IMG/VR virus record: IMGVR_UViG_3300022542_001010
Location: 1-30,612 of that record
Length of the DNA: 30,612 bases
DNA from: a virus
Reading direction: 5' to 3' (one strand)
Part shown: in pieces, positions 1 to 29,710 of the stretch
Position numbering within the stretch: the first letter of the stretch is position 1
Layout: the number at the start of each line of letters is the position of its first letter
Translations under genes and position numbers: made by a program
Notes under the pieces: generated by a model
What the model saw: the letters and a program-made list of their open reading frames with translations, nothing else
What the model was told of the DNA's origin: nothing
Database searches by the model: none

Positions 1-5
1 ATAGA

Positions 6-107
6 ATGAAATATGAAAAGATTATGTTGTAAGAATATGGCAGCCATAATGTAAGAGATTTTAATAATCAATTCCTTTACACAAGTAAGAAAAAGTGGGA
101 TGAATAA
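6..107 (+). pseudogene. Short open frame broken by an in-frame ochre codon
   Basis: An ATG at 6-8 opens a frame that stops at TAA 30-32 after eight codons. The same frame then stays open to TAA 105-107 and encodes a plausible peptide ending YTSKKKWDE. The final TAA overlaps the ATG of the next gene (TAATG), the coupling style used throughout this genome, which argues that the downstream part is or was translated. There is no in-frame start after codon 9. It could be a gene with a nonsense mutation, the tail of a gene relocated by recombination, or chance. Large genes here end normally in TAA, so general ochre reassignment is unlikely. Confidence 0.3.
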
Positions 108-355
108 TGATATTTAAGAAAATAAGAGAATACATAGAAAAAAAGAATGAAGAAAAGAGAGAACTAGACGCGTGTTTTAAATGGACACCTCTAGCCGAAA
201 GAAACTATCACGCTGGTTATGAACAGGGTTTTAAAGATGGTTACGAACGGGGTTGGAATGATCGAGAGCTTAAATATGCAGATAAGTTATTAAAGGAAGA
301 ATATGAGAATCATGTATTTAAAAAGATAATCCAACCCCGCGCAATAAATAATTAA
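107..355 (+). CDS. Small protein with glycine-every-four motif, unknown function
   Basis: This is an 82-residue hydrophilic protein. Residues 1-24 are highly charged (KKIREYIEKKNEEKRE). Residues of about 37-53 read GYEQGFKDGYERGWNDR, with glycine every fourth position alternating with aromatics. That is the pattern called deca-GX3 in the Yae1 family and seen in many small phage proteins. A lysine-rich tail follows. The start at ATG 107 overlaps the stop of the preceding broken frame, and only a weak GGGA lies upstream. The same glycine periodicity recurs in two minus-strand genes of this window. Function is unknown; a helical packing or protein-binding role is inference only. Confidence 0.65.
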   Translation: MIFKKIREYIEKKNEEKRELDACFKWTPLAERNYHAGYEQGFKDGYERGWNDRELKYADKLLKEEYENHVFKKIIQPRAINN

Positions 356-376
356 CAATAACCAAGGAGACTAATT

Positions 377-384
377 ATGTAATG
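377..384 (+). promoter_or_regulatory. Start-stop element (ATG TAA) overlapping the next start codon
   Basis: An AAGGAG at 364-369 is followed 7 nt later by ATG TAA at 377-382. The last A of that stop begins the ATG (382-384) of the sigma-like gene, giving ATGTAATG. The Shine-Dalgarno is optimally spaced for the abortive ATG and about 12 nt from the real start. Ribosomes could load on the one-codon ORF and reinitiate, or stall, which would lower or tune expression of the downstream gene. The arrangement is seen; the regulatory effect is inferred. Confidence 0.35.
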
Positions 385-693
385 AAACTAACAGAGGAAC
401 TAATACTTGAAGCCTATAAACAAATAAGACTAACACTGATAAACCCTAAAACATCAAATAACAAACTCGCGAAAGAACTATATCAAAAGTATCATGTTGA
501 AACAGAAGACCTTATACAAGACCTTATATTATTATTTATGAAGCGTAAACATAAACCAATAAGAAACATGCCATCATATATTAATACATTTGTATACAGA
601 GCTCTATTAGATATAGCAAAGTATCATGGTAGACAGAAACGGATTGAGAAGAAACACTTGGTTGATATAGATGACCCTAAACTAAACATTTAG
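382..693 (+). CDS. Sigma-70 region 2-like protein lacking region 4
   Basis: This 103-residue protein resembles region 2 of ECF-type sigma factors. Residues of about 40-58 (ETEDLIQDLILLFMKRK) match the D-x-x-Q-(D/E)-x-(F/L) signature that binds the RNA polymerase clamp. PSYINTFVYRALLDIAK followed by basic GRQKRIEKK matches the end of region 2 (W-L/Y-x-I-A-x-N-x-x-x-D-x-x-R). Only about ten residues follow, so the region 4 helix-turn-helix that reads the -35 box is absent. Full ECF sigmas are usually 160-200 residues. It may modify host polymerase for viral promoters, act as a split sigma with a partner, or be an anti-sigma decoy. The assignment rests on pattern similarity only. Its start is preceded by the start-stop element at 377. 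Confidence 0.55.
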   Translation: MKLTEELILEAYKQIRLTLINPKTSNNKLAKELYQKYHVETEDLIQDLILLFMKRKHKPIRNMPSYINTFVYRALLDIAKYHGRQKRIEKKHLVDIDDPKLNI

Positions 694-997
694 TGATACT
701 GGACTATTCTTTATTAATACTAAACTAATGTTATTTTATACTATATTATTATACTAAAAGTCGTCTATATATTATATAGGGAAGTTTTCCAAGACTTACT
801 TGGGCAACCCTATTATTTCTTCATAGAATTGAGATTTAGCTTTATCCATAATTTTACGACATTTCCTTCCAGATAACTTTTCCCGAGTTATTGCAGCCTC
901 GTTCAGAGGCATAAAAGGACAACCACTTCTAGGATACGAATGTGGTCCTAATTCTGCAGAATTAAATACGAATACTAAATAATATAGGGGATAACAA
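694..997. other. Intergenic stretch without a confident gene
   Basis: The first about 90 bases are almost purely A/T and rich in TACTA/TATA words. A hairpin-like CCAAG-actta-CTTGG lies at 789-803. The remainder carries a possible minus-strand reading frame (796-912, open further upstream). No plus-strand gene or convincing promoter is visible. Confidence 0.4.
796..912 (-). CDS. Possible small minus-strand ORF or gene remnant
   Basis: An ATG at 912 (minus strand) gives 38 codons to TAA at 796-798. The peptide is basic and helical-looking (REKLSGRKCRKIMDKAKSQF, then YEEIIGLPK). The frame remains open upstream of the ATG, past position 1000, with coding-like sequence (AELGPHSYPRSGCPF), but no in-frame ATG or Shine-Dalgarno is seen there, and none precedes the 912 ATG either. 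It may be the 3-prime end of a decayed gene. It overlaps the upstream region of the plus-strand gene at 998, which has a good ribosome site. I do not recognise a family. Confidence 0.25.
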   Translation of the reverse strand: MPLNEAAITREKLSGRKCRKIMDKAKSQFYEEIIGLPK

Positions 998-1198
998 GTG
1001 AAACAGAATAGATCTGTTAGAAGAGTAAAATATAGAGTTATAACGGTGCCATTTGATTCATCTGATGAGGGACTAACGGAAGCATTAATGTCCCAAGCAT
1101 CTGAAAAACTTGAAGCTTATAGATATGAACTTCATTCAATGCATCAAATTGAAGGAAGAGGATTAGTCTTAATTTTCTGGCGTAATTTTAAGACATAG
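998..1198 (+). CDS. Small hypothetical protein, DUF4177-like in pattern
   Basis: This is a 66-residue protein starting at GTG 998, with AGGGG 7 nt upstream. It has a basic N-terminus, then a strand-helix-strand-looking core: YRVITVPFD, a helix around LTEALMSQASEKLEAYRYEL, and a final GRGLVLIFWR strand. The order strand, long helix, strand ending in (L/V)IFWR or FKR resembles the short DUF4177 family, but this is shape similarity only. The word gagggactaac occurs inside the gene (around 1067) and again in the direct repeat that follows the stop. Function is unknown. Confidence 0.55.
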   Translation: MKQNRSVRRVKYRVITVPFDSSDEGLTEALMSQASEKLEAYRYELHSMHQIEGRGLVLIFWRNFKT

Positions 1199-1245
1199 GG
1201 ACCAACGAGGGACTAACAGAGAAGGGACCAACGAGGGACTAACAG
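1198..1245 (+). repeat. Two 22-bp direct repeats just after the stop codon
   Basis: Identical 22-bp copies lie at 1198-1219 and 1224-1245, separated by 4 bases. The core accaacgagggacta (1201-1215, 1227-1241) recurs with one change at 9832-9846, between the capsid gene and the next mini-gene. The repeat contains the Shine-Dalgarno-like GAGGG but is not followed by a start codon here. It could be a protein- or RNA-binding site; its function is unknown. Confidence 0.6.
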
Positions 1246-1375
1246 GGTTATTATAAATTTATGAGGAATTAACTTTATTAATCTTTTTTTTATTAATTTC
1301 AATTACTTAATTAATTTAATTTTTTGTAGGTAACGGGGTGACGAGAAAAGTCGACCCAGGAGAGATAAATTTTGT

Positions 1376-1399
1376 GGCGCCAGCTAATTTACTGGCGCC
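1376..1399 (-). terminator. Hairpin terminator of the minus-strand operon
   Basis: A perfect 8-bp GC-rich stem GGCGCCAG (1376-1383) pairs with CTGGCGCC (1392-1399) around an 8-nt loop. It lies just past the stop of the last minus-strand gene (1405). Downstream on the minus strand is acaaaattta, so the U-tract is poor. It could work in both directions, since the plus strand shows tgtgtttaattta. Confidence 0.6.
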
Positions 1400-1404
1400 T
1401 GTGT

Positions 1405-1563
1405 TTAATTTAATAGATCTAGTATGAACTCTGTTGCATCTTTTTGACCGACCAAATAATTCATAACCATGTTATCTGGTATGGTGTCGTCAGCTTTTTC
1501 TTTTTTACTGTCAATTCGACCAGTCAGATAAATCAAAAGTTGTTCAACTTTTTCAATACCCAT
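1405..1563 (-). CDS. Small hypothetical protein, last gene of minus operon
   Basis: This is 52 residues, acidic overall, starting at an ATG (1563) that overlaps the stop of the upstream gene in a TAATG arrangement. It opens with MGIEKVEQLLIYLTGRID, likely an amphipathic helix, then a charged linker (KKEKADD), and ends in a second helix (KDATEFILDLLN). The two-helix layout would suit a small protein-protein interaction module, but no family is recognised. It is co-transcribed and probably translationally coupled with the gene at 1712, and is followed by the hairpin at 1376-1399. Confidence 0.55.
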   Translation of the reverse strand: MGIEKVEQLLIYLTGRIDSKKEKADDTIPDNMVMNYLVGQKDATEFILDLLN

Positions 1564-1712
1564 TAATTTACCCCCTCTTTAATCATACTTTCCGAGTCTT
1601 CTTTTGCTTTATTATATCCATGGGTGTAAGCGTCATCGTAAGCGTCTGTGTAACCATCATCATAATCTTTTGATTCCAACCTTCTTTTTAACTGTTTCTC
1701 ATCCTTTGTCAT
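1563..1712 (-). CDS. Small glycine/tyrosine-periodic protein, unknown function
   Basis: This 49-residue protein starts at ATG 1712 with AAAGGAG upstream (minus strand). It begins MTKDEKQLKRRLESKDY. Its centre, DDGYTDAYDDAYTHGYNKA, has a G/A-Y pair every four residues, the same periodicity as the proteins at 107 and 2373. Its stop overlaps the start of the next gene (TAATG), and it begins 3 nt after the stop of the NUMOD3 gene. The clean ribosome site and tight packing support expression. Function is unknown. Confidence 0.6.
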   Translation of the reverse strand: MTKDEKQLKRRLESKDYDDGYTDAYDDAYTHGYNKAKEDSESMIKEGVN

Positions 1713-1714
1713 TA

Positions 1715-1897
1715 TTATATTCTCCTTTCTTGATTAAGATTATTTTTGATTCTATTTTCGTTAAATCGTTTTACACCTTCACTAATTTTTAGTTTGGTTT
1801 CTTCAGAGTGTTTATACCCTGTTTTTGATTCACTGATTGCTTTTTTAGAACTTTCTTTCATTCTGAAATTTTTGGGTCTTCCGACTAATTGTTTCAC
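1715..1897 (-). CDS. Stand-alone NUMOD3 DNA-binding motif protein
   Basis: This is a 60-residue basic protein. I place its start at GTG 1897 because a strong GGAGG with 8-nt spacing precedes it; a longer frame from 1966 has no such site. After VGRPKNF come two copies of the NUMOD3 pattern: ESSKKAISESKTGY and HSEETKLKISEGVKRF. NUMOD3 helices bind DNA in the C-terminal part of GIY-YIG and HNH homing endonucleases. No nuclease domain is present here or nearby, so this is either a remnant of a homing endonuclease or a stand-alone DNA-binding protein, possibly regulatory. The strong ribosome site argues that it is still translated. It follows a leader rich in hairpins. Confidence 0.65.
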   Translation of the reverse strand: MKQLVGRPKNFRMKESSKKAISESKTGYKHSEETKLKISEGVKRFNENRIKNNLNQERRI

Positions 1898-1939
1898 TTT
1901 AATCACCTCCTTTAAGGTAGATTGTGTAATTCGACTTTT

Positions 1940-2028
1940 GTGCGGATTAAGTATGCAAGAACTCACCGCACTTTTAAAACTACCTGATGGAACTACAGGT
2001 TGTGCGAGATTATTATTTCAAATCTCGC
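1940..2028 (-). promoter_or_regulatory. Leader with three hairpins upstream of the NUMOD3 gene
   Basis: On the minus strand, between the stop at 2053 and the start at 1897, three inverted repeats follow each other: an 8-bp stem GCGAGATT/AATCTCGC (2004-2011 with 2021-2028), a 5-bp stem ACCTG/CAGGT (1982-1986 with 1996-2000), and a 6-bp stem GTGCGG/CCGCAC (1940-1945 with 1966-1971). The first two have 9-nt loops. None is followed by a good U-tract. The leader could be an attenuator, a binding site for a small protein, or what is left of an intron. It matches no riboswitch I know. Confidence 0.4.
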
Positions 2029-2052
2029 GTAATAATTATTTTCCTATTTTAA

Positions 2053-2373
2053 TTATTCAACTAAGAATTTGTAATTCATTTTATCACCATTATCAAATCC
2101 GATAGTTTGTCCTGATTTAGCACAGTTTCTAACAGCATTAAGACACATCTCGAAACTGTCTTCTTCATCATAATTTATCTCAACTGTAATGATTTTCTTT
2201 TGCTTTAATTTAGGTCTGTCCCAACTGTCATAAAGGGTGTTTCCGGTTTTGGCTGTTCCTGCTTTTAGTCCAGATATGTTTCCACTTTTGTATCCGTCTT
2301 CAAATCCTACTTTCTTTCCATCATTCAGTCCATACCAGTAACCTTCTTTATTTCTTCTTTCTTCTGTTGTCAT
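2053..2373 (-). CDS. Glycine-periodic (deca-GX3-like) small protein
   Basis: This 106-residue protein starts at ATG 2373 after AAAAGGAG with good spacing. Residues of about 11-38 carry GYWYGLNDGKKVGFEDGY, continuing GNISGLKAG: glycine at every fourth residue for about seven turns, the deca-GX3 pattern of the Yae1 family. The C-terminal half (IITVEINYDEEDSFEMC to KFLVE) looks like a small mixed alpha/beta domain with two cysteines. It is the second gene of the leftward operon, and the 8-bp hairpin at 2004-2028 lies beyond its stop. Its role is unknown; the repeated occurrence of the motif in this phage suggests a family with interacting partners. Confidence 0.65.
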   Translation of the reverse strand: MTTEERRNKEGYWYGLNDGKKVGFEDGYKSGNISGLKAGTAKTGNTLYDSWDRPKLKQKKIITVEINYDEEDSFEMCLNAVRNCAKSGQTIGFDNGDKMNYKFLVE

Positions 2374-2399
2374 TTTTTAAATCTCCTTTTGGTTTTATT

Positions 2400-2540
2400 T
2401 TATTTCCATCTTTTTAATAGTTCAGGGTCTGTTTCTTCGATAATTCTTTCTCTCAATTCTTCTATGTTTTCATGTAAAATTTCATAACACAGACATTCTA
2501 TTTCTTTTTGTTGGTATTCTATAATTTCATCTTTTGTCAT
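2400..2540 (-). CDS. Small charged helical protein, first gene of minus operon
   Basis: This 46-residue protein (starting MTKDEIIEYQQKEIECLCYE) is rich in Glu and Lys and probably wholly helical. Its start at ATG 2540 is preceded by AAGGTGGTGAT. It opens with MTKDE, as does the gene at 1712, and sits 26 nt upstream of the gene at 2373. It is the first gene of the leftward operon, next to the long non-coding region that should hold its promoter. No family is recognised. Confidence 0.55.
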   Translation of the reverse strand: MTKDEIIEYQQKEIECLCYEILHENIEELRERIIEETDPELLKRWK

Positions 2541-2637
2541 TCAAATCACCACCTTCTGTTTTATTTAACTTCCCCTCTACTTTAAATAGGGGTTACATTA
2601 ATAATAATAAAACATACCTAACTTATTGATATCTTTA

Positions 2638-2643
2638 ATTATA
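2638..2643 (-). promoter_or_regulatory. Possible -10 box for the leftward operon
   Basis: The minus strand has a perfect TATAAT about 100 nt upstream of the first leftward gene (start 2540). No good -35 hexamer is found 16-18 nt further upstream. In such AT-rich DNA a lone TATAAT may be chance. Confidence 0.22.
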
Positions 2644-3278
2644 TACTACTTTAACACTAATACCTGAATTCCTAAACCCCCAATCCATAGGGGTCGAAGT
2701 TAGTATTTGTAATTGGAATCAATAGTTACGGCCCATTTTCTTTGTAAACCGTTGATACTCTAACATCTACGAGGATTTGCGGTCGCGACACTACAAAAAA
2801 ATATTTTTGATTATTTCCAATTTCTTTAATTATTTTTTACAATTTACAATTACAAAAGAGCCAAAAGTCTACCAAACAACATTTTTCTCGCGCGGAAGAA
2901 AATATCGCTAAAAGTTCCAAACTCATTGAACAAGTAACTACTAATAGTAAAAGAGTAACAATAACAATATAACTACCACTATTACTCTAACCTACAAAGA
3001 GATTAACTCAACTCTCTATGTAACAAATAACAACTTTAAATTAATACAACGCACTCTAACTACCCTTAGTTTTTACGCTACACGCCACAACAGCTACACT
3101 GTATTTCTACACTACACTGCTTTATTTATGCTATACCTACACCATACCTACATTATGCTATGCTATACCTACACTACATTATTATTATGTAATACAACGG
3201 TCGTCATACATCCGCATATCTGTAGGTCTTACAACATAATAATAATAGTATAGTAATAATATAATCTATATATCTTAG

Positions 3279-3431
3279 TGTAGTATCAATAACATATCTT
3301 GTGTATGCTCTCAGAGGCCTCTCATTATACTAATGTAATACCTATCTATACTAATGTAGTATCAAGCTCATATACGCGCTCTCAGAGCTTCTCAGAGGGT
3401 ATTATGTAATACTAAACTAATGTAGTATTAA
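3279..3431 (+). repeat. Degenerate tandem repeats with internal palindromes
   Basis: The word tgtagtatcaa begins units at 3279 and 3355, and tgtagtattaa at 3421, giving spacings of 76 and 66 bases. Each of the first two units also holds ctctcagag (3308-3316 and 3379-3387), a TAATGTAATAC or TATGTAATAC word, and a closing actaa. Local palindromes are AGAGGCCTCT (3313-3322) and GCTCTcAGAGC (3378-3388). The ordered recurrence of several words in the same sequence argues for a duplicated functional block, such as iterons or operator sites. Confidence 0.5.
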
Positions 3432-3684
3432 TACTATACTATATTAACAAGGTTAGCCCTACTTAAATATGATGATACTATTCTATTATACTATACTATT
3501 GTTGACACTCGTACCTACCAGCAAACCCGCGGCCGGGGCTTCAGCAGCTCTATCCACCTGTAATTTCAGTAAGTTAGTAAGTGGGTTATATCATTACATA
3601 TTATCAATAGTATCATGGTCAAATACCCTTTTTATAGGGGGTAAATACTTTTTTCTATACTATATCTATTATGTAAGACAAAAC

Positions 3685-3706
3685 TCGCAGACGCACGGTT
3701 CTGCGA
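3685..3706 (-). other. Hairpin beside a minus-strand Shine-Dalgarno and ATG-TGA
   Basis: A perfect 7-bp stem TCGCAGA/TCTGCGA (3685-3691, 3700-3706) has an 8-nt loop. On the minus strand it is followed by gttttgtctt, terminator-like. Just upstream on the same strand is GGAGGAG (near 3722-3728), then ATG TGA at 3715-3710. A GTG at 3713 opens a 14-codon frame containing CVCEFC and ending at 3669. It could be a leader peptide with an attenuator; there is no proof of transcription. Confidence 0.3.
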
Positions 3707-3817
3707 TGGTCACATCAAAAACTCCTCCTAACACTATGGTACTGTAGTGTTTGCATTCTGTAGTGGTATGTAAGCTAGGGGTAATCATTACATATTCTTA
3801 CTTTGGAGGTCACCCAT

Positions 3818-3859
3818 ATGACATTTTTTCGCCGCGCAAAGAAATATTACACTCGATAG
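3818..3859 (+). CDS. Thirteen-codon basic mini-ORF with strong Shine-Dalgarno
   Basis: GGAGGT at 3805-3810 lies exactly 7 nt before ATG 3818, one of the best ribosome sites in the window. The frame encodes MTFFRRAKKYYTR and stops at TAG 3857-3859. Such a short, basic, aromatic peptide could be a leader peptide or a tiny DNA- or membrane-binding product. Alternatively the ribosome site belongs to a gene since deleted. No partner gene directly follows. Confidence 0.35.
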   Translation: MTFFRRAKKYYTR

Positions 3860-4083
3860 TAATACTATATTATATAATAATATAATACTAATAGTGTTGG
3901 ATTATACTACACTACATTTATCTACACATGCTGCATTATATTTCTACACTACAGCTAAGCTACACTAAGTTTATTTATATGTTATACTATACTACTAACT
4001 ATTGGATCGATTCAGATCGAACTTCTTATATGCCATAATGGTCACTGTAAAAATTTTTGCGGGTTTTTCCATAGCGGTATAAA

Positions 4084-4095
4084 ATAGTATACTAT
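4084..4095. promoter_or_regulatory. 12-bp palindrome, possible operator
   Basis: ATAGTATACTAT is a perfect palindrome located about 20 bases upstream of the putative -35 box of the structural operon. Related TAGTATA/TACTATA words are common throughout the neighbouring non-coding DNA, so specificity is uncertain. Confidence 0.3.
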
Positions 4096-4113
4096 AAAAT
4101 AGTTTAATCTTAT

Positions 4114-4142
4114 TTGTATAAAATCACATAGAATAATATAGT
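4114..4142 (+). promoter_or_regulatory. Putative promoter of the packaging/structural operon
   Basis: TTGTAT (4114-4119) and TATAGT (4137-4142) are separated by exactly 17 bases. The -10 matches the sigma-70 consensus at 5 of 6 positions and the -35 at 3 of 6. The implied transcript would start about 85 nt upstream of the first gene (4233). Late phage genes may instead depend on a phage factor. Confidence 0.4.
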
Positions 4143-4232
4143 TTTAATACATAGTTATTTACTCTGTAAATCACTTAAAGAGATTTTGTTTCACAAAGTA
4201 TCTCAGTATCACAATAAATAGGGGAGAAAAAC

Positions 4233-4445
4233 ATGAACGAAAAGATAAAATTAGCAATATCACAGTATACAATAGAAATTTTAATATCAGTATTGAATAA
4301 GCAAAATCCCGAATTAGTATCTCAGAAGGTTTTTGAATTAACCAGTCATATTGAAACTATCATAGAACAATTTGATATAGATAAAACCACAACAATAAAT
4401 GATATAACATTTGGTGAAGAAGGTAAAATTGAAGAAAAAAGTTAA
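4233..4445 (+). CDS. Small hypothetical protein upstream of terminase
   Basis: This is a 70-residue acidic protein starting at ATG 4233 behind a clear GGGGAGA. Residues 1-50 look like two amphipathic helices (IKLAISQYTIEILISVLNKQ and FELTSHIETIIEQFDI), followed by an acidic tail (FGEEGKIEEKS). It is the first gene of the structural operon, and its 3-prime end overlaps the putative small terminase. No family is recognised. A role in packaging is suggested only by position. Confidence 0.6.
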   Translation: MNEKIKLAISQYTIEILISVLNKQNPELVSQKVFELTSHIETIIEQFDIDKTTTINDITFGEEGKIEEKS

Positions 4446-4773
4446 TCCAAAAAGCATAGAAAACCTTAAAAAAGGTAGTTCAGGTAATTTATATGATGCT
4501 CGTAAGGCTAAAGAAGCTGAAAAGTGGAATGAACTTATGGATGTTGATGCACAACTTGTAGAATTACATAGGATGGGGATGAGATTTTTGCGCGGGCATA
4601 GAAAGTTTACTAAAGACCAAGCTACTGTTTGGGGTAAGATGTTTGAAAAATTGGCTGATAAAGTTTTACCGACAGCTAAAATCCAAGTTGATAATAATAA
4701 GACTATAACAATAAAGGTGAAAAAACCAAATGAACATAGAGATAGACCTGACGGAACTGAAGGAAGCGACTAA
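4429..4773 (+). CDS. Putative terminase small subunit
   Basis: This protein is about 114 residues if it begins at TTG 4429, preceded by AGAAGG with 5-nt spacing. Alternative starts at TTG 4411 or GTG 4414 lack such a site. It has a very basic N-terminus (KKKVNPKSIENLKKG), a helical middle (about residues 25-85) and a lysine-rich C-terminus. The call rests on position: it lies directly before and overlaps TerL, where the small subunit that recognises the packaging site normally sits. I cannot point to a clear helix-turn-helix, and the protein is on the short side, so another packaging-associated role remains possible. Confidence 0.5.
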   Translation: MKKKVNPKSIENLKKGSSGNLYDARKAKEAEKWNELMDVDAQLVELHRMGMRFLRGHRKFTKDQATVWGKMFEKLADKVLPTAKIQVDNNKTITIKVKKPNEHRDRPDGTEGSD

Positions 4774-5986
4774 TCCTGATTTTTTACCGTTATTAAAAAA
4801 TAGAAATAGATATTTAGTCTTGAGAGGCGGGGCCGGCTCAGGGAAATCTCATTTCTGCGCCCAGAAAATTCTTCTGCGTATTTTGATGGATTTAGATAAG
4901 CCTTTTAAACATAAATTCTTGGTTTTGAGAAAGACTGCTCCTAGTGCTAGAAAATCAGTTTGGCCATTATTGAGAAATTATATTTATGATTGGGGACTGA
5001 ATCACATTTGTCATGAAAATAGAACTGAAATGTCTTTTACATTTGAAGATGGTAGTGAGATTTTGTGTACTGGTTTAGATGACCCAGAGAAAATAAAAAG
5101 TATCGAAGGTATCACAGGAGTATGGATGGAAGAAGCTACTGAAATGGCTTTAAGTGATTTTAGACAGGTAGATCTTCGTCTCAGGGGTTTAGTTCCAACT
5201 TATTTTCAGATAATGCTTAGTTTCAACCCAATTTCTGATTTAAGTTGGGTTTATAGTGAGTTTTTTGGTAAAAAATCAGAGGATGCTTTTACACATTTTT
5301 CTACTTATAAAAGTAATATGTTTCTAGATGATATCTATAAGCGTAAACTAGAAGAACTGATTGATAAAGATTTTTGGCATTATAAAGTTTATACTTTAGG
5401 CGAATGGGGTAGTTTAGATCATATTGTATATAATAATTGGTCAGAGGTGGATAGTTTTCCTGAAGATGTTAAGGAAATTATTTGTGGAATGGACTTTGGT
5501 TATACTCATCCGGCTGGTTTAATTATGTTAGGTATAACTGATGAAGGATTATATGTTAAACAATTATTATATGTTAAAAAACAACACATGAAAAAGATAA
5601 TTACTAAAATGAAAAAGATAATCCCCCAAGAATATGGAAAGCCAAACGAGTTAAATTTAAATACACCAATTTATTGCGATAGTGCTTATCCTGGAGATAT
5701 AGCACAATTGAGGGAGACTGGTTTTAATGCTATACCAGTAACAAAAGGTAAAAATACTGTTAAAGAAGGTATAGATGTTATAAAACAGCATAAATTGTTT
5801 ATAACAAAAGATAGTATTGATTTATTAAGAGAAATTCGACAGTATAAATATAAAGAAGACAAAGATGGTAATGTATATGAAGAACCTGTTAAACTTAGGG
5901 ATGATTTGATGGATGCTATGAGATATGCCGCTTATATGCGTTTTAGAAAAAGAAGATTATTAGAAGTATTATTTATTGAAATGTAG
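4730..5986 (+). CDS. terL: Terminase large subunit (packaging ATPase-nuclease)
   Basis: This 418-residue protein drives DNA into the prohead and cuts it. The N-terminal ATPase has Walker A GGAGSGKS at residues 33-40 and a Walker B region VWMEEATE near 131-138 with the catalytic Glu. SFNPISDLSWVY near 165 is the coupling-motif region typical of the PBSX-type Terminase_3 family. The C-terminal RNase H-like nuclease shows the three expected acidic sites: CGMDFGYTHPAG (Asp near 255), IYCDSAYPGD (near 317) and LRDDLMDAMRY (near 390-394). Length is normal for the family. The start overlaps the 3-prime end of the preceding gene; AAAGGTG lies upstream. Confidence 0.96.
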   Translation: MNIEIDLTELKEATNPDFLPLLKNRNRYLVLRGGAGSGKSHFCAQKILLRILMDLDKPFKHKFLVLRKTAPSARKSVWPLLRNYIYDWGLNHICHENRTEMSFTFEDGSEILCTGLDDPEKIKSIEGITGVWMEEATEMALSDFRQVDLRLRGLVPTYFQIMLSFNPISDLSWVYSEFFGKKSEDAFTHFSTYKSNMFLDDIYKRKLEELIDKDFWHYKVYTLGEWGSLDHIVYNNWSEVDSFPEDVKEIICGMDFGYTHPAGLIMLGITDEGLYVKQLLYVKKQHMKKIITKMKKIIPQEYGKPNELNLNTPIYCDSAYPGDIAQLRETGFNAIPVTKGKNTVKEGIDVIKQHKLFITKDSIDLLREIRQYKYKEDKDGNVYEEPVKLRDDLMDAMRYAAYMRFRKRRLLEVLFIEM

Positions 5987-6013
5987 GGGAACTAAAAAAA
6001 AGGAAAAAATAAT

Positions 6014-7690
6014 ATGGGAGTAATAAAATCTGTTAAAAATCTCTGGACTGGCGTACAAATATTAGCAAACAGTTCTAATGAGAAAAGTTGGTCAGAGGAT
6101 TTAATGGCCGTCAGAAATGGTAATTTAGAAAGTTGGTCTTCTGATGAAATAACAAATCCTTATGCTGAAAATTATGTAGTTCATAGAGGATTACAAATAC
6201 TGGCTACTAATATTGCGCAAGTTCCCTTTGATTTATATCAAGGAGAAGAGAAGCTAAGTTCTGATTTTGAATTAAATAGTGTTTTACATAAACCTAATCC
6301 CTATACATCAAATTTTGAGTTATGGGAAGCCACAATAACATATCTATTTTTATATGGAGAGGCTTTTTGGTATCTTAATACTAATAATTTTAATATAATA
6401 AGAGAAATTTATGCTTTACACCCCAAATATATGAGGCATGTTCAAGATACTACATATGATCCAATAAAAAGTTGGGTTTATAATGATAAAATACCAATGA
6501 ATCTTGATGAGGTTGTTCATTTTAAATTATTTAATGGCGGTGGAGTAAGAGGATTATCACCATTAGATACTATTAAAATAGAATATGCAACTGATAAAGA
6601 AGCAGCCGAGCTTGGTAAGAGAGTATTCAAAAACGGCACAAAATTAAGTGGGGTAATCGAGGTTGACAAAGAAGTTGGTACTACTTTAGAAGAAATGCGA
6701 AGAATTTTAGGAATGTGGAAACAAGAACATCAGGGTTCGGAAAAAGCTTATAAAGTTGGTGCATTATTAGGCGGCATGAAGTATAGAGAATTAGGTCAAA
6801 CTATGGCTGATTTAGAATTTATTGCTGGTAGAGACGCCATTAGAGATCGAATTTTGCTTGTTCTGGGTATTCATAAAGCTGTGGTGGGAGTAACTGATAA
6901 AATTGATAGAGCAACTGCTGATACAGCATTGAGGTCTTTATGGCAAACTACATTAAAACCCCAAACTGTCCGTATTCAAGAAAAAATTAATGCTTCACTA
7001 CTGGATATTTATTATCCAGGATTAAGTTGTAAATTTGACTTGACAGTGGTAGAAGAATTAAAGAAAGATCTTAATGATACTCTCGACGCTGCTACAAAAC
7101 TTTGGAAAATGGGTTATACACGCAATGAAATTAATACAAGACTTGGTCTTCGTATGCCTGAAGATGATGGTGATAAACGATTAATACCCCGTATCATGAT
7201 TCCTGAAGATATGGCCGAAGCAGCAGCTGTAACTGGTAGAAGCACTACTCAAGCAAATGATCCTAGAAAATCAACTGAAAAAGACATACCTGAGTATTCA
7301 GAAAAAAAGATCGTCCAACCTGAAGCATCTGAGAGGACAGTAAAAACCCAAAACAATCAACTAGTTAAAAAACTAAAGAATTTCTTGGTATTACAGCGCG
7401 GAAAAGTAATAAAAATCTTTTTAAAACATGAAAAAGTAGATAAATTACTTGAAAAAGAAGATAATAGGTTAAAACAGGCTTTAGAATCATTTGAAAAGAA
7501 ATCTATAAAAAACATTTTCGGATTAAATTCTATTATTTTTAAACAAATTAATGAAATTATTTCTGTAGAAAATCAGAATAAAGATGAAAAGATTAATAAT
7601 ATTAAAAAATTATATGAATTTTTAAATACTAAAACTGAATTTATTATTAGTGGTGAAGATGATGAAATTATCAAAAGTAATAAGGAATAA
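6014..7690 (+). CDS. Portal protein, HK97/SPP1-like, with long C-terminal tail
   Basis: This 558-residue protein forms the ring through which DNA enters and leaves the head. Features typical of Phage_portal include NPYTSNFELWEATITYLFLY near residue 94, the VVHFKLFNGGGVRGLSPL loop near 165-182, and LWQTTLKPQTVRIQEKIN near 310. The core ends around residue 400. The remaining 150 or so residues are lysine/glutamate-rich and probably helical, longer than in many HK97-type portals. It starts after AAAGGA, 27 nt past TerL. Its last bases overlap a tiny ORF in another frame (7662-7751). Confidence 0.95.
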   Translation: MGVIKSVKNLWTGVQILANSSNEKSWSEDLMAVRNGNLESWSSDEITNPYAENYVVHRGLQILATNIAQVPFDLYQGEEKLSSDFELNSVLHKPNPYTSNFELWEATITYLFLYGEAFWYLNTNNFNIIREIYALHPKYMRHVQDTTYDPIKSWVYNDKIPMNLDEVVHFKLFNGGGVRGLSPLDTIKIEYATDKEAAELGKRVFKNGTKLSGVIEVDKEVGTTLEEMRRILGMWKQEHQGSEKAYKVGALLGGMKYRELGQTMADLEFIAGRDAIRDRILLVLGIHKAVVGVTDKIDRATADTALRSLWQTTLKPQTVRIQEKINASLLDIYYPGLSCKFDLTVVEELKKDLNDTLDAATKLWKMGYTRNEINTRLGLRMPEDDGDKRLIPRIMIPEDMAEAAAVTGRSTTQANDPRKSTEKDIPEYSEKKIVQPEASERTVKTQNNQLVKKLKNFLVLQRGKVIKIFLKHEKVDKLLEKEDNRLKQALESFEKKSIKNIFGLNSIIFKQINEIISVENQNKDEKINNIKKLYEFLNTKTEFIISGEDDEIIKSNKE

Positions 7691-7751
7691 TGAATTTGAG
7701 GATAATAAACAACGATATGCTGTCTGTCAACAAAAATGGCGTGATAAGTAA
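7662..7751 (+). CDS. 29-codon overlapping mini-ORF, FEDNKQRYAVCQQKW motif
   Basis: The frame is +1 relative to the portal gene. ATG 7662 opens a 29-residue peptide (MKLSKVIRNNEFEDNKQR, then YAVCQQKWRDK) that ends 15 nt before the protease start. GGTGA lies about 7 nt upstream. The arrangement F-x-x-x-x-Q-R-x-A-V-C-x-x-x-W looks non-random, and similar short motifs occur in phage head-gene regions, though I cannot name a family. It fills what would otherwise be a 76-nt gap in a tightly packed operon. It may be a genuine mini-gene or an exon-like remnant of a fused domain. Confidence 0.4.
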   Translation: MKLSKVIRNNEFEDNKQRYAVCQQKWRDK

Positions 7752-7766
7752 AAGAAGGAGAAGAAA

Positions 7767-8603
7767 ATGGAAGCAAAACATTTAAGATTTTATACTACCT
7801 TAAAAATGAAGGCCAATAAAGAAGAAGATAGAACTGTAGATTTTATTGCTACTAAAGAAATTATAGATCGTGATGGGGAAATTTTAAAAGTTAGTGGTCT
7901 CACAACTGCTAACTATAAAAAAAACCCTGTTGTTTTATGGGCTCATGATAGAAGAGGTTTACCTGTAGGTAAAACAGTAAAAATTTCTAAAAGGGGCGAT
8001 ATTATGAAAATGAGAGTTCAATTCGCCAAACCTGAAGAATACGGTTTTGCCGATACGGTTTATAAATTAGTTAAAGGTGGATATTTAAATGCGGTTTCGG
8101 TAGGTTTTACACCAGATTATAGTAAAACCGAATATCCTGGTAGAAACAAACCTAATAGTAAAATATATAGAATTTTCCACAAGACTGATTTATTAGAATT
8201 ATCTGTATGTCCTATTGGCGTAAATCAAGAAGCATTAAGTGTTGATAAAGCTTTACAAGATGGTATTATTGATGAGGTGGAATTAAATGAATGGAATTTA
8301 TATTATGAAAAAGCCATTGAACAATATGAAGATATAATAGATAATATTGATGATACTGATACTAAGAAATTGTCTTTAGATATATTAACTAAAATGAATC
8401 AAGAAATTGACCAAAGATTACAAGAAATAAGAGAAGAAAATAAATCTTATTTAGATAGTATCTTCGAGAGCTATAAAAAGGACATCTCGTCTTCGGACAA
8501 AGAGAGTCAAACTGATGAGTTCACAGAAGATGATACTAAAGAGATATTAACTGAAATGGGATTTGATGAAGATGAAATCAATGACCTATTGGAGGAAGAA
8601 TAA
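7767..8603 (+). CDS. Prohead maturation protease, HK97 gp4 family (S78)
   Basis: This 278-residue serine protease is predicted to cleave the capsid N-terminal domain during head maturation. The family landmarks are present in order: IDRDGE near 33-38, WAHD with His60, NAVSVGF with Ser111, and LLELSVCP with Glu144, matching an H-S-E triad and the usual spacing. Residues from about 165 onward are strongly acidic and helical, about 110 residues beyond the catalytic core, possibly a scaffold-like or self-removed tail. The start follows AGAAGGAG. The stop overlaps the capsid start (TAATG). Confidence 0.93.
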   Translation: MEAKHLRFYTTLKMKANKEEDRTVDFIATKEIIDRDGEILKVSGLTTANYKKNPVVLWAHDRRGLPVGKTVKISKRGDIMKMRVQFAKPEEYGFADTVYKLVKGGYLNAVSVGFTPDYSKTEYPGRNKPNSKIYRIFHKTDLLELSVCPIGVNQEALSVDKALQDGIIDEVELNEWNLYYEKAIEQYEDIIDNIDDTDTKKLSLDILTKMNQEIDQRLQEIREENKSYLDSIFESYKKDISSSDKESQTDEFTEDDTKEILTEMGFDEDEINDLLEEE

Positions 8604-9787
8604 TGGACGCTAAAAAGTTTACAAAGTTTCAAGATGAACTCGCTGGTATGATTTTTGAAAGAATGAACAAAGCGGAATTCAATGAAGGTAAAGAAGAAAC
8701 TCGCGAGGAAATCGCTAGGATGAAAGAAGATAATACTGCATTAAAAGCTGAGATGGAAACTCTTCGTAAATCTGCTGGTAAGAAAGTTTCTTTATCAGTT
8801 CCTGGTGAAGAAAAAACTACAGATTTTATATATAAAGGGTATGATTTGAAAAGTCAAGGTGCTATCTTAACAGTTCCAGATGAACAGAAAGAGCATATAG
8901 CTAAATTTGCAATAGATGTAATGATTAATGATAAGGCAGCTCTCAATGAAGGTACAGCGGCTCAAGGTGGTTATACTGTCCCTGAAATTTGGGAAACAGA
9001 AATGCAAGCATTGGCTCGTTTGAATTCTGTAGCTATTAAGGATTGTCGTATTTGGCCTATGTCCACTGATACTACCCTTATTCCAAAAGAAAATGGGGCT
9101 GTAAGTGTTGATTGGGCTAATGAAAAGAGTGCTAATAGTGAAAGCGAACCTACAGTGGATCAAATTACTTTATCTGCTAAGAGATTAGGTGCTTATTCCG
9201 AAAGTTCGACCGAACTTGTTGAAGATAGTTTTGTTGATATCGTTTCCTGGCTGACGGAATTATTTGCAGAAGCTCAGGGTCAAGAAATTGATAAACAGGT
9301 TTTTGTAGGAACTACTTTTACTAGTTCTTTGAAGGGTAATGCCGGAGCAACTATTTCTGGCTCAGGCGCTTATTCAGCGATTACTTATACTGATTTTGCA
9401 AGTGCTATTACTCAGATTGAAGCTCCTCGTAGAGTAGGCGCGAAATATTATTTGGATAAGTCTATGGCTTATTATGTTCGTACAATGAAAGATGGTTCTA
9501 ACCGACTAATCTATCAAATGCCTAATGGTACTGACCCAGAAAATATTTATAACTACTTAATGGCAGAAGTTCCGCAGATGACTAATACACCAGCAGCTGC
9601 TGATACTGGCTTTTTCTTTGGAAATCTGAGAAAGGCTTACGCTCTTGGAAGGCGTAGAGGTATGACTATGAAGGTTAACCCATACATTAAAATGAAAGAG
9701 GAAATGGTTCAGTTTATTAATAATTCACGCTGGGATGGTGCAGTTGTACTACCTGGTGCTTATGTTGAATGGATTGCTAAGACATAA
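8603..9787 (+). CDS. Major capsid protein, HK97 fold
   Basis: This 394-residue protein builds the icosahedral shell. Residues 1-60 form a charged coiled coil (ARMKEDNTALKAEMETLRK), the delta/scaffold domain expected in HK97-type capsids. A linker leads to the mature domain, which begins around EGTAAQGGYTVPEIW (near residue 114). RLGAYSESSTELVEDS and the final sequence VEWIAKT are typical of the fold. The predicted protease is encoded immediately upstream, and cleavage in the 95-112 stretch is likely but not locatable by eye. The start overlaps the protease stop. A GC-rich hairpin follows the gene. Confidence 0.95.
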   Translation: MDAKKFTKFQDELAGMIFERMNKAEFNEGKEETREEIARMKEDNTALKAEMETLRKSAGKKVSLSVPGEEKTTDFIYKGYDLKSQGAILTVPDEQKEHIAKFAIDVMINDKAALNEGTAAQGGYTVPEIWETEMQALARLNSVAIKDCRIWPMSTDTTLIPKENGAVSVDWANEKSANSESEPTVDQITLSAKRLGAYSESSTELVEDSFVDIVSWLTELFAEAQGQEIDKQVFVGTTFTSSLKGNAGATISGSGAYSAITYTDFASAITQIEAPRRVGAKYYLDKSMAYYVRTMKDGSNRLIYQMPNGTDPENIYNYLMAEVPQMTNTPAAADTGFFFGNLRKAYALGRRRGMTMKVNPYIKMKEEMVQFINNSRWDGAVVLPGAYVEWIAKT

Positions 9788-28714: not shown

Positions 28715-29710
28715 ATGGCAGACATTGATAAATTATTTAATATAGATATCTCATCTGGTTTAAAATTATGGGATGAAATTATACATTCTCATTATTCAAT
28801 GGTTATGGATCTAGATGTTCCTACACCGACACCTAGAGGAATATTTGCTGGCGGTGATACAGGTTCAAATTCTAATATTATTGATTACATAACCATAAAT
28901 ACAACTGATAATGCTATAGATTTTGGGGATTTATCAGCGGTGAAGGCTGCTATTGCCGCTACATCTAATGGTACAAATGAAAGAGGTGTTTTTGCTGGTG
29001 GTAGTGGTGTCACTTATTATAATGTTATTGAGTATATAACAATTAATAGTACTGGTAATACTACTGATTTTGGTGATTTGACTATAACCAGAAATTGGAT
29101 AGGTGCTACATCTAATGGTACAAACGAAAAGGCTCAATTTGCCGGTGGTTATGACGCTTCTGTAAATAGAAATGAGATCGATTACATAACCATAAATACA
29201 ATAGGTAATGCTACTGGCCAGGGTGATTTAACGAGTATAAGAAGAGGCGTTGCCGCTACATCTAACGGTACTAATGATAGAGGGATATTTGCTGGTGGTT
29301 TTACAACAACAAGAATCAATATAATAGAATATACTACAATATCAACAACAGCTGGTTCTGCTGATTTTGGGGATTTAAATAATATTATGACTACATCTGC
29401 TACATCTAATGGTACAGATGAAAGAGGTGTTTTTTGTGGTGGTTATATCACAGCGATCACTAATATCATTGATTATATTACAATTAATACAACCGGTAAT
29501 GCTACTGATTTTGGGGATTTAACATCAGCTAGATATAATTTAAGTGCTACATCTAATGGTACAGATGAAAGAGGTGTGGTTGCTGGTGGTTATGATGGAA
29601 ATGTAACCGATGTTATTGATTATATAACAATCTCAACAACCGGCAACGCTGCTAATTTTGGTGATTTAACAGTGTCTAGACATGCATTAGATGCAACATC
29701 TAATGCGTAA
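28715..29710 (+). CDS. Kelch-like repeat (beta-propeller) tail protein
   Basis: This is a 331-residue protein after AAAGGA. After a 45-residue N-terminal segment come six repeats of about 48-50 residues. Each has the form RGVFAGG, variable, then IDYITINTTGNATDFGDL, then a short helix or strand and ATSNGTNE. The repeated G-G plus aromatic spacing recalls kelch blades, so a six-bladed propeller is plausible. Similar repeats are familiar in phage and large-virus surface proteins. Repeat 3 is the most divergent (KAQFAGG, GQGDL). The last ends ATSNA, so the sixth is complete. It probably binds a host or environmental ligand. Confidence 0.75.
   Translation: MADIDKLFNIDISSGLKLWDEIIHSHYSMVMDLDVPTPTPRGIFAGGDTGSNSNIIDYITINTTDNAIDFGDLSAVKAAIAATSNGTNERGVFAGGSGVTYYNVIEYITINSTGNTTDFGDLTITRNWIGATSNGTNEKAQFAGGYDASVNRNEIDYITINTIGNATGQGDLTSIRRGVAATSNGTNDRGIFAGGFTTTRINIIEYTTISTTAGSADFGDLNNIMTTSATSNGTDERGVFCGGYITAITNIIDYITINTTGNATDFGDLTSARYNLSATSNGTDERGVVAGGYDGNVTDVIDYITISTTGNAANFGDLTVSRHALDATSNA

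Follow-up and report, generated by a model that had tools for sequence, protein, structure and literature searches.

What a long gene-free stretch does immediately upstream of the terminase genes in a compact phage genome is the question raised by positions 2541-4232 of the IMG/VR record IMGVR_UViG_3300022542_001010. The record is linear, and the window analysed here is its whole length of 30,612 bases, which represents an incomplete genome (a linear fragment). In the original prediction the region was a candidate replication origin, packaging site or dense operator array. The answer preferred here, tentatively and with the balance just short of even, is that it is a divergent control region carrying a binding-site array for a leftward gene unit and for the packaging and structural operon.

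A gene-free stretch between divergent units

The region extends from the start of a leftward ORF (2400-2540) to the start of a rightward ORF (4233-4445), and the predicted 1.7 kb without a gene was correctly placed: its longest ORF encodes 92 aa, it contains no tRNA, and it matches no Rfam family at the gathering threshold, permissive settings giving one chance-level match only. Hidden or decayed genes were rejected as an explanation, since five candidate ORFs inside the region have no PHROG match, and starts behind strong Shine-Dalgarno-like sites yield peptides of at most 14 aa. Two short signals were observed in passing. On the plus strand, at 3818-3859, TTTGGAGG precedes a 13-codon ORF (MTFFRRAKKYYTR); on the minus strand, at 3685-3735, AGGAGGAG is followed by an ATG leading directly into TGA and, just after, by a terminator-like hairpin (3685-3706), an arrangement that could be a one-codon minigene, a leader or attenuator, or chance.

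On the left, five small leftward ORFs (1405-2540, minus strand) make up one transcription unit. None has a confident family assignment, and searches with the left-hand genes returned weak matches but no homologues. The sole motif found is NUMOD3, a homing-endonuclease DNA-binding motif in the small leftward ORF at 1715-1966, where no nuclease domain was found. Small ORFs on both strands (107-355, 1563-1712 and 2053-2373) have short G-Y/D-G repeats in common, for example GYEQGFKDGYERGW. The leftward unit ends at a strong hairpin, GGCGCCAG...CTGGCGCC (1376-1399), which faces a rightward gene and is likely a two-way terminator between convergent genes. On the right, the late operon begins (4233-5986, plus strand) with a 70-aa ORF, TerS (4411/4429-4773) and TerL (4730-5986), followed by the portal gene (6014-7690); TerL and portal are clear by PHROG profiles, and the TerS call is based on a match to the TerS-like ORF of relative L004 (58% over 83 aa). 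As had been proposed, the region thus lies where a short leftward unit and the packaging and structural operon diverge. The accompanying picture of tight packing everywhere else does not extend to the left 4 kb, which has further gaps of 304 and 206 b.

It is highly improbable that the region encodes a structured non-coding RNA. A local plus-strand hairpin at 3624-3643, terminator-like and followed by a T-rich tract, favours such an RNA (z -4.2 in a 120-nt window, although z is -1.2, a weak value, when it is folded alone), but the Rfam result and the ordinary folding energies of 300-nt windows on both strands (z between -2.5 and +0.7) argue against it.

Repeated words and a candidate binding-site array

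The plus strand of the region is C-rich and, as predicted, G-poor: GC skew is -0.21 overall, reaches -0.6 in places at the left, approaches 0 at the right end and partly carries on from the leftward genes. The predicted repetition of CTACAC was also borne out, with 10 occurrences on the plus strand (1.2 expected) and, as another top word, 16 of ATACTA (4.0 expected), both excesses being due to a five-base rhythm, CTAYA/TACTA. Repeated 8-mers are in excess (269 vs 138 +/- 13 in dinucleotide shuffles, z about 10); in the same scan the structural genes nearby have z of about -0.5 to 3.3, and the repetitive right-end (tail-side) genes 5 to 15. At that end, ORF 28715-29710, which matches PHROG 19111, of unknown function, contains a 147-base unit in about two tandem copies (29398-29705, 77-80% alike). 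The tandem pair [CT]TA[CT]A[CT]TA[CT]A occurs 10 times on the plus strand of the region (0.69 expected) and not at all on the minus strand (0.29 expected), and elsewhere in the window only at 736, 9970 and 29473. The repeated words gather in a left block of CTACAC and CTATAC (3078-3190) and a right block of CTACAC and ATACTA (3860-3995), both on the plus strand; a 24-nt unit of the left block (3093-3116) recurs at 3930-3953 with 88% identity.

The repeats can be condensed to one loose 12-mer, YTAYACTAYAYT, with 15 copies at no more than one mismatch, seven of them exact, within about 1 kb (3094-4097). Eleven lie on the plus strand (3094, 3107, 3169, 3429, 3434, 3486, 3655, 3860, 3902, 3907 and 3982) and four on the minus strand (3277, 3353, 3419 and 4086). 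Shuffled sequences hold 1.3 such sites (maximum 4) and 0.06 exact ones, and a third-order Markov model expects 2.75 (maximum 8), but a fourth-order model, which already holds most of the word, expects 6.4 and reached 17 once in 200. The 12-mer was taken from this very region, which makes the counts partly circular: they document concentration rather than independent discovery. The single exact copy in the rest of the window is at 736, in a second intergenic stretch (694-997, plus strand), and all eight exact sites of the window thus fall within the two left intergenic regions.

Palindromes and hairpins had also been predicted: exact inverted repeats with 7-nt arms are only mildly enriched (9 vs 3.0 +/- 2.4), and the RNA hairpins other than 3624-3643 are ordinary. 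A perfect 8+8-nt inverted repeat, TAATACTA-N8-TAGTATTA, lies at 3407-3430 and has a second copy with three mismatches at 715-738, one half of which (715) accompanies the exact 12-mer at 736; a further repeat at 3730-3751, AACACTA-N8-TAGTGTT, has the same half-site and spacing. The half-site AYACTA is enriched (34 vs 8.7), but its spacing is not fixed, and a dimeric operator of fixed spacing was rejected. The left 4 kb and the late genes may have been brought together by an assembly error; the intergenic word common to 715-747 and 3407-3445 speaks for one genome instead.

In a divergent control region, the 15 copies, mostly in one orientation, would form a multi-site array for a phage (or host) DNA-binding protein, and the bound protein would set transcription from promoters lying among them, possibly switching early to late expression. 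The density of the sites and the confinement of the exact copies to the two intergenic regions favour this reading, as does a possible sigma-70-like protein encoded by the 103-aa ORF at 382-693 (sigma-70/ECF, TIGR02937 E 0.0026, a weak match far below the cut-off). Against it stand the origin of the 12-mer in the region itself, the irregular spacing and orientation of the sites, and a candidate word with no DNA-binding protein linked to it. Sigma-70-like promoters are at chance level as well (31 vs 31.4 in shuffles over 1-6000). T7-like promoters were considered and found unconvincing (best score 23 vs 19-22 in ten shuffles), and a single-sequence structure model of the 382-693 product, all-helical with pLDDT 50, was too low in confidence to use.

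The same repeats may also be read as the trace of five-base slippage (CTAYA/TACTA). The region would then be mostly neutral spacer, low-complexity AT-rich DNA that arrived together with an inserted cassette of small leftward genes (1376-4232) and has yet to be lost. This is on the unlikely side and is nevertheless a serious rival, since the closest relatives are without the region and similar microsatellite arrays occur elsewhere. Lag-5 autocorrelation (z about 4) and six tandem CTAYA pairs (0.18 expected) agree with slippage, and the leftward genes on the left flank stand as a unit of their own, ended by a strong hairpin. Slippage accounts less well for copies that are scattered across 1 kb instead of forming a single tract, for the larger imperfect direct repeats and the two inverted repeats with common half-site and spacing, and for the exact 12-mer in the second intergenic region.

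Terminase relatives and look-alike gaps

The closest relatives by TerL are L003 (78% identity), L004 (76%) and L045 (56%), followed by L005 (about 50%) and L046, L047 and L048 (48%). The region has no homologue among 80 TerL relatives scanned, and its DNA has none in phage or plasmid collections; comparison with 24 relatives gave two marginal 40-base matches only. In L004, L045, L047 and L005, small rightward genes follow one another closely as far as TerS. One simple gene caller was run on the window and the 80 relatives, the majority of which had over 1 kb of DNA upstream. The caller is crude and missed, for example, the TerS of L046; by its calls, the region (1692 b) is the largest ORF-free gap within 4 kb of TerL on the upstream side, the next being 1197 b, and the tandem pair has 11 copies in the window and at most three in any relative. 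Absence from related phages had been named in the original prediction as an observation that would count against a functional role, and the closest relatives do lack the region, with packed rightward genes in its place, as the spacer reading would have it. On these comparisons the region is lineage-specific, not conserved, and not a packaging element that the family needs.

Packaging sites commonly lie near TerS and TerL and need only tens to hundreds of bases. The region adjoins both genes, and a cos or pac site within it had been suggested, but this is very unlikely and nothing was found in its support: the relatives at 76% and 56% TerL identity, whose TerS is recognisable, have coding sequence at this place, no conserved non-coding block is found upstream of TerS in the 24 relatives, and the region is far longer than such a site needs.

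The divergent control region finds a parallel in L046 and L048, which likewise set a leftward gene unit opposite TerS with phage-specific repeats between them; unlike in the window, the gap is 200-250 b and the repeats are of other sequence (TCCGGA in L046, a GTTTGTTCTAAATGT inverted repeat in L048). A DnaB-like helicase is encoded in the leftward unit of L048. In L046, three TCCGGAG...AGTCCGGA repeats (601-700) between a small leftward ORF and TerS resemble an operator array.

Similar words were also sought in viral contigs as two CTACACTACA copies within 30 bases, which yielded 39 stretches, some within ORFs and others in gaps. The occurrence of period-5, microsatellite-like arrays of the same word in unrelated contigs, in part inside ORFs, favours the spacer and weakens the case for a control region. 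One of the stretches points the other way. In L140/L135, a near-identical contig pair (IMG/VR 3300035701_000270 / 3300032046_003483), leftward genes including RusA are followed by a 992-base gap, TerS (Terminase_2), TerL (Terminase_6C) and a P22-like portal gene. As in the window, about 1 kb without a matched gene precedes TerS-TerL-portal and carries CTACAC, CTATGC and ATACTA words in the same orientation (CTACACTACAC...CTATGCTATAC). The terminases belong to other families, the array is one compact tract, and the gap holds a possible 72-aa ORF (5644-5862). The phage is unrelated, the two TerL proteins giving a negligible alignment; the two gaps align with at best 54 bits, whereas shuffling the window region by 10-mer blocks gives 34 +/- 4.3 (maximum 48). 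The same words at the same place speak against a neutral spacer, and together with the directional 12-mer array they support the dense site array foreseen at the divergence, although, with about a dozen intergenic arrays in all, a single such likeness could be coincidence.

A broader proposal, judged improbable, is that such 12-mer arrays recur as a cis element before the terminase operons of unrelated phages (the window and L140/L135), and that either a common factor, perhaps of the host, recognises them or they have spread between phages as non-coding DNA. In a 234-kb viral contig (L127), 17 copies of the same 12-mer surround a small-gene cluster (7212-8833), plus-oriented at the left and mostly minus-oriented at the right. 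Exact searches with two region-specific words returned no match for one and nine contigs, none with an array, for the other, and literature searches found no description of a CTACA array in a phage among the papers covered.

Significance and comparison with known origins

What makes the region unusual is mainly its size and its look-alike in an unrelated phage. As a control hub, it would supply a ready motif for tracking down the regulator that switches on the packaging genes, in a phage group of which hardly any member has been studied; recurrence of the element ahead of unrelated terminases would point to late-gene control common to different phages. A spacer, in turn, would illustrate how much idle DNA an accessory cassette brings into a compact genome.

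The region could also be an origin of replication in the manner of Ceduovirus (c2-type), which is judged rather unlikely. AT-rich, easily melted segments at 3236-3295, 3860-3919 and 4080-4139 are among the weakest in the window, but comparably weak ones occur in coding parts (7589 and 12670). The cumulative GC-skew minimum of the window falls within the region, in line with the original prediction, but is largely explained by gene orientation. DnaA-box-like sites are at chance level (11 in the window vs 12.5 expected, one of them inside the region) and form no cluster, and a DnaA-dependent, bacterial-type origin was rejected. Regular iterons are absent, the genes scanned in this incomplete record include none recognised as a replication gene, and the region yielded no origin-specific feature.

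In the Lactococcus Ceduovirus phages (c2/bIL67), the origin occupies gene-free DNA that separates divergently transcribed early and late blocks; early promoters flank it, and its sequence varies from group to group (PMC7150918). The region shares the gene-free, divergent layout and the lack of conservation, and both speak for an origin. No sequence relation is seen, blastn giving no match to the c2, bIL67 and 923 origins in the phage collection at E 0.01 (assuming that Ceduovirus genomes are included), and the adjacent late genes of the window, unlike those of Ceduovirus, are the terminase genes. With a gene-free stretch between divergently transcribed blocks in both, Ceduovirus offers the nearest described arrangement to that at 2541-4232.
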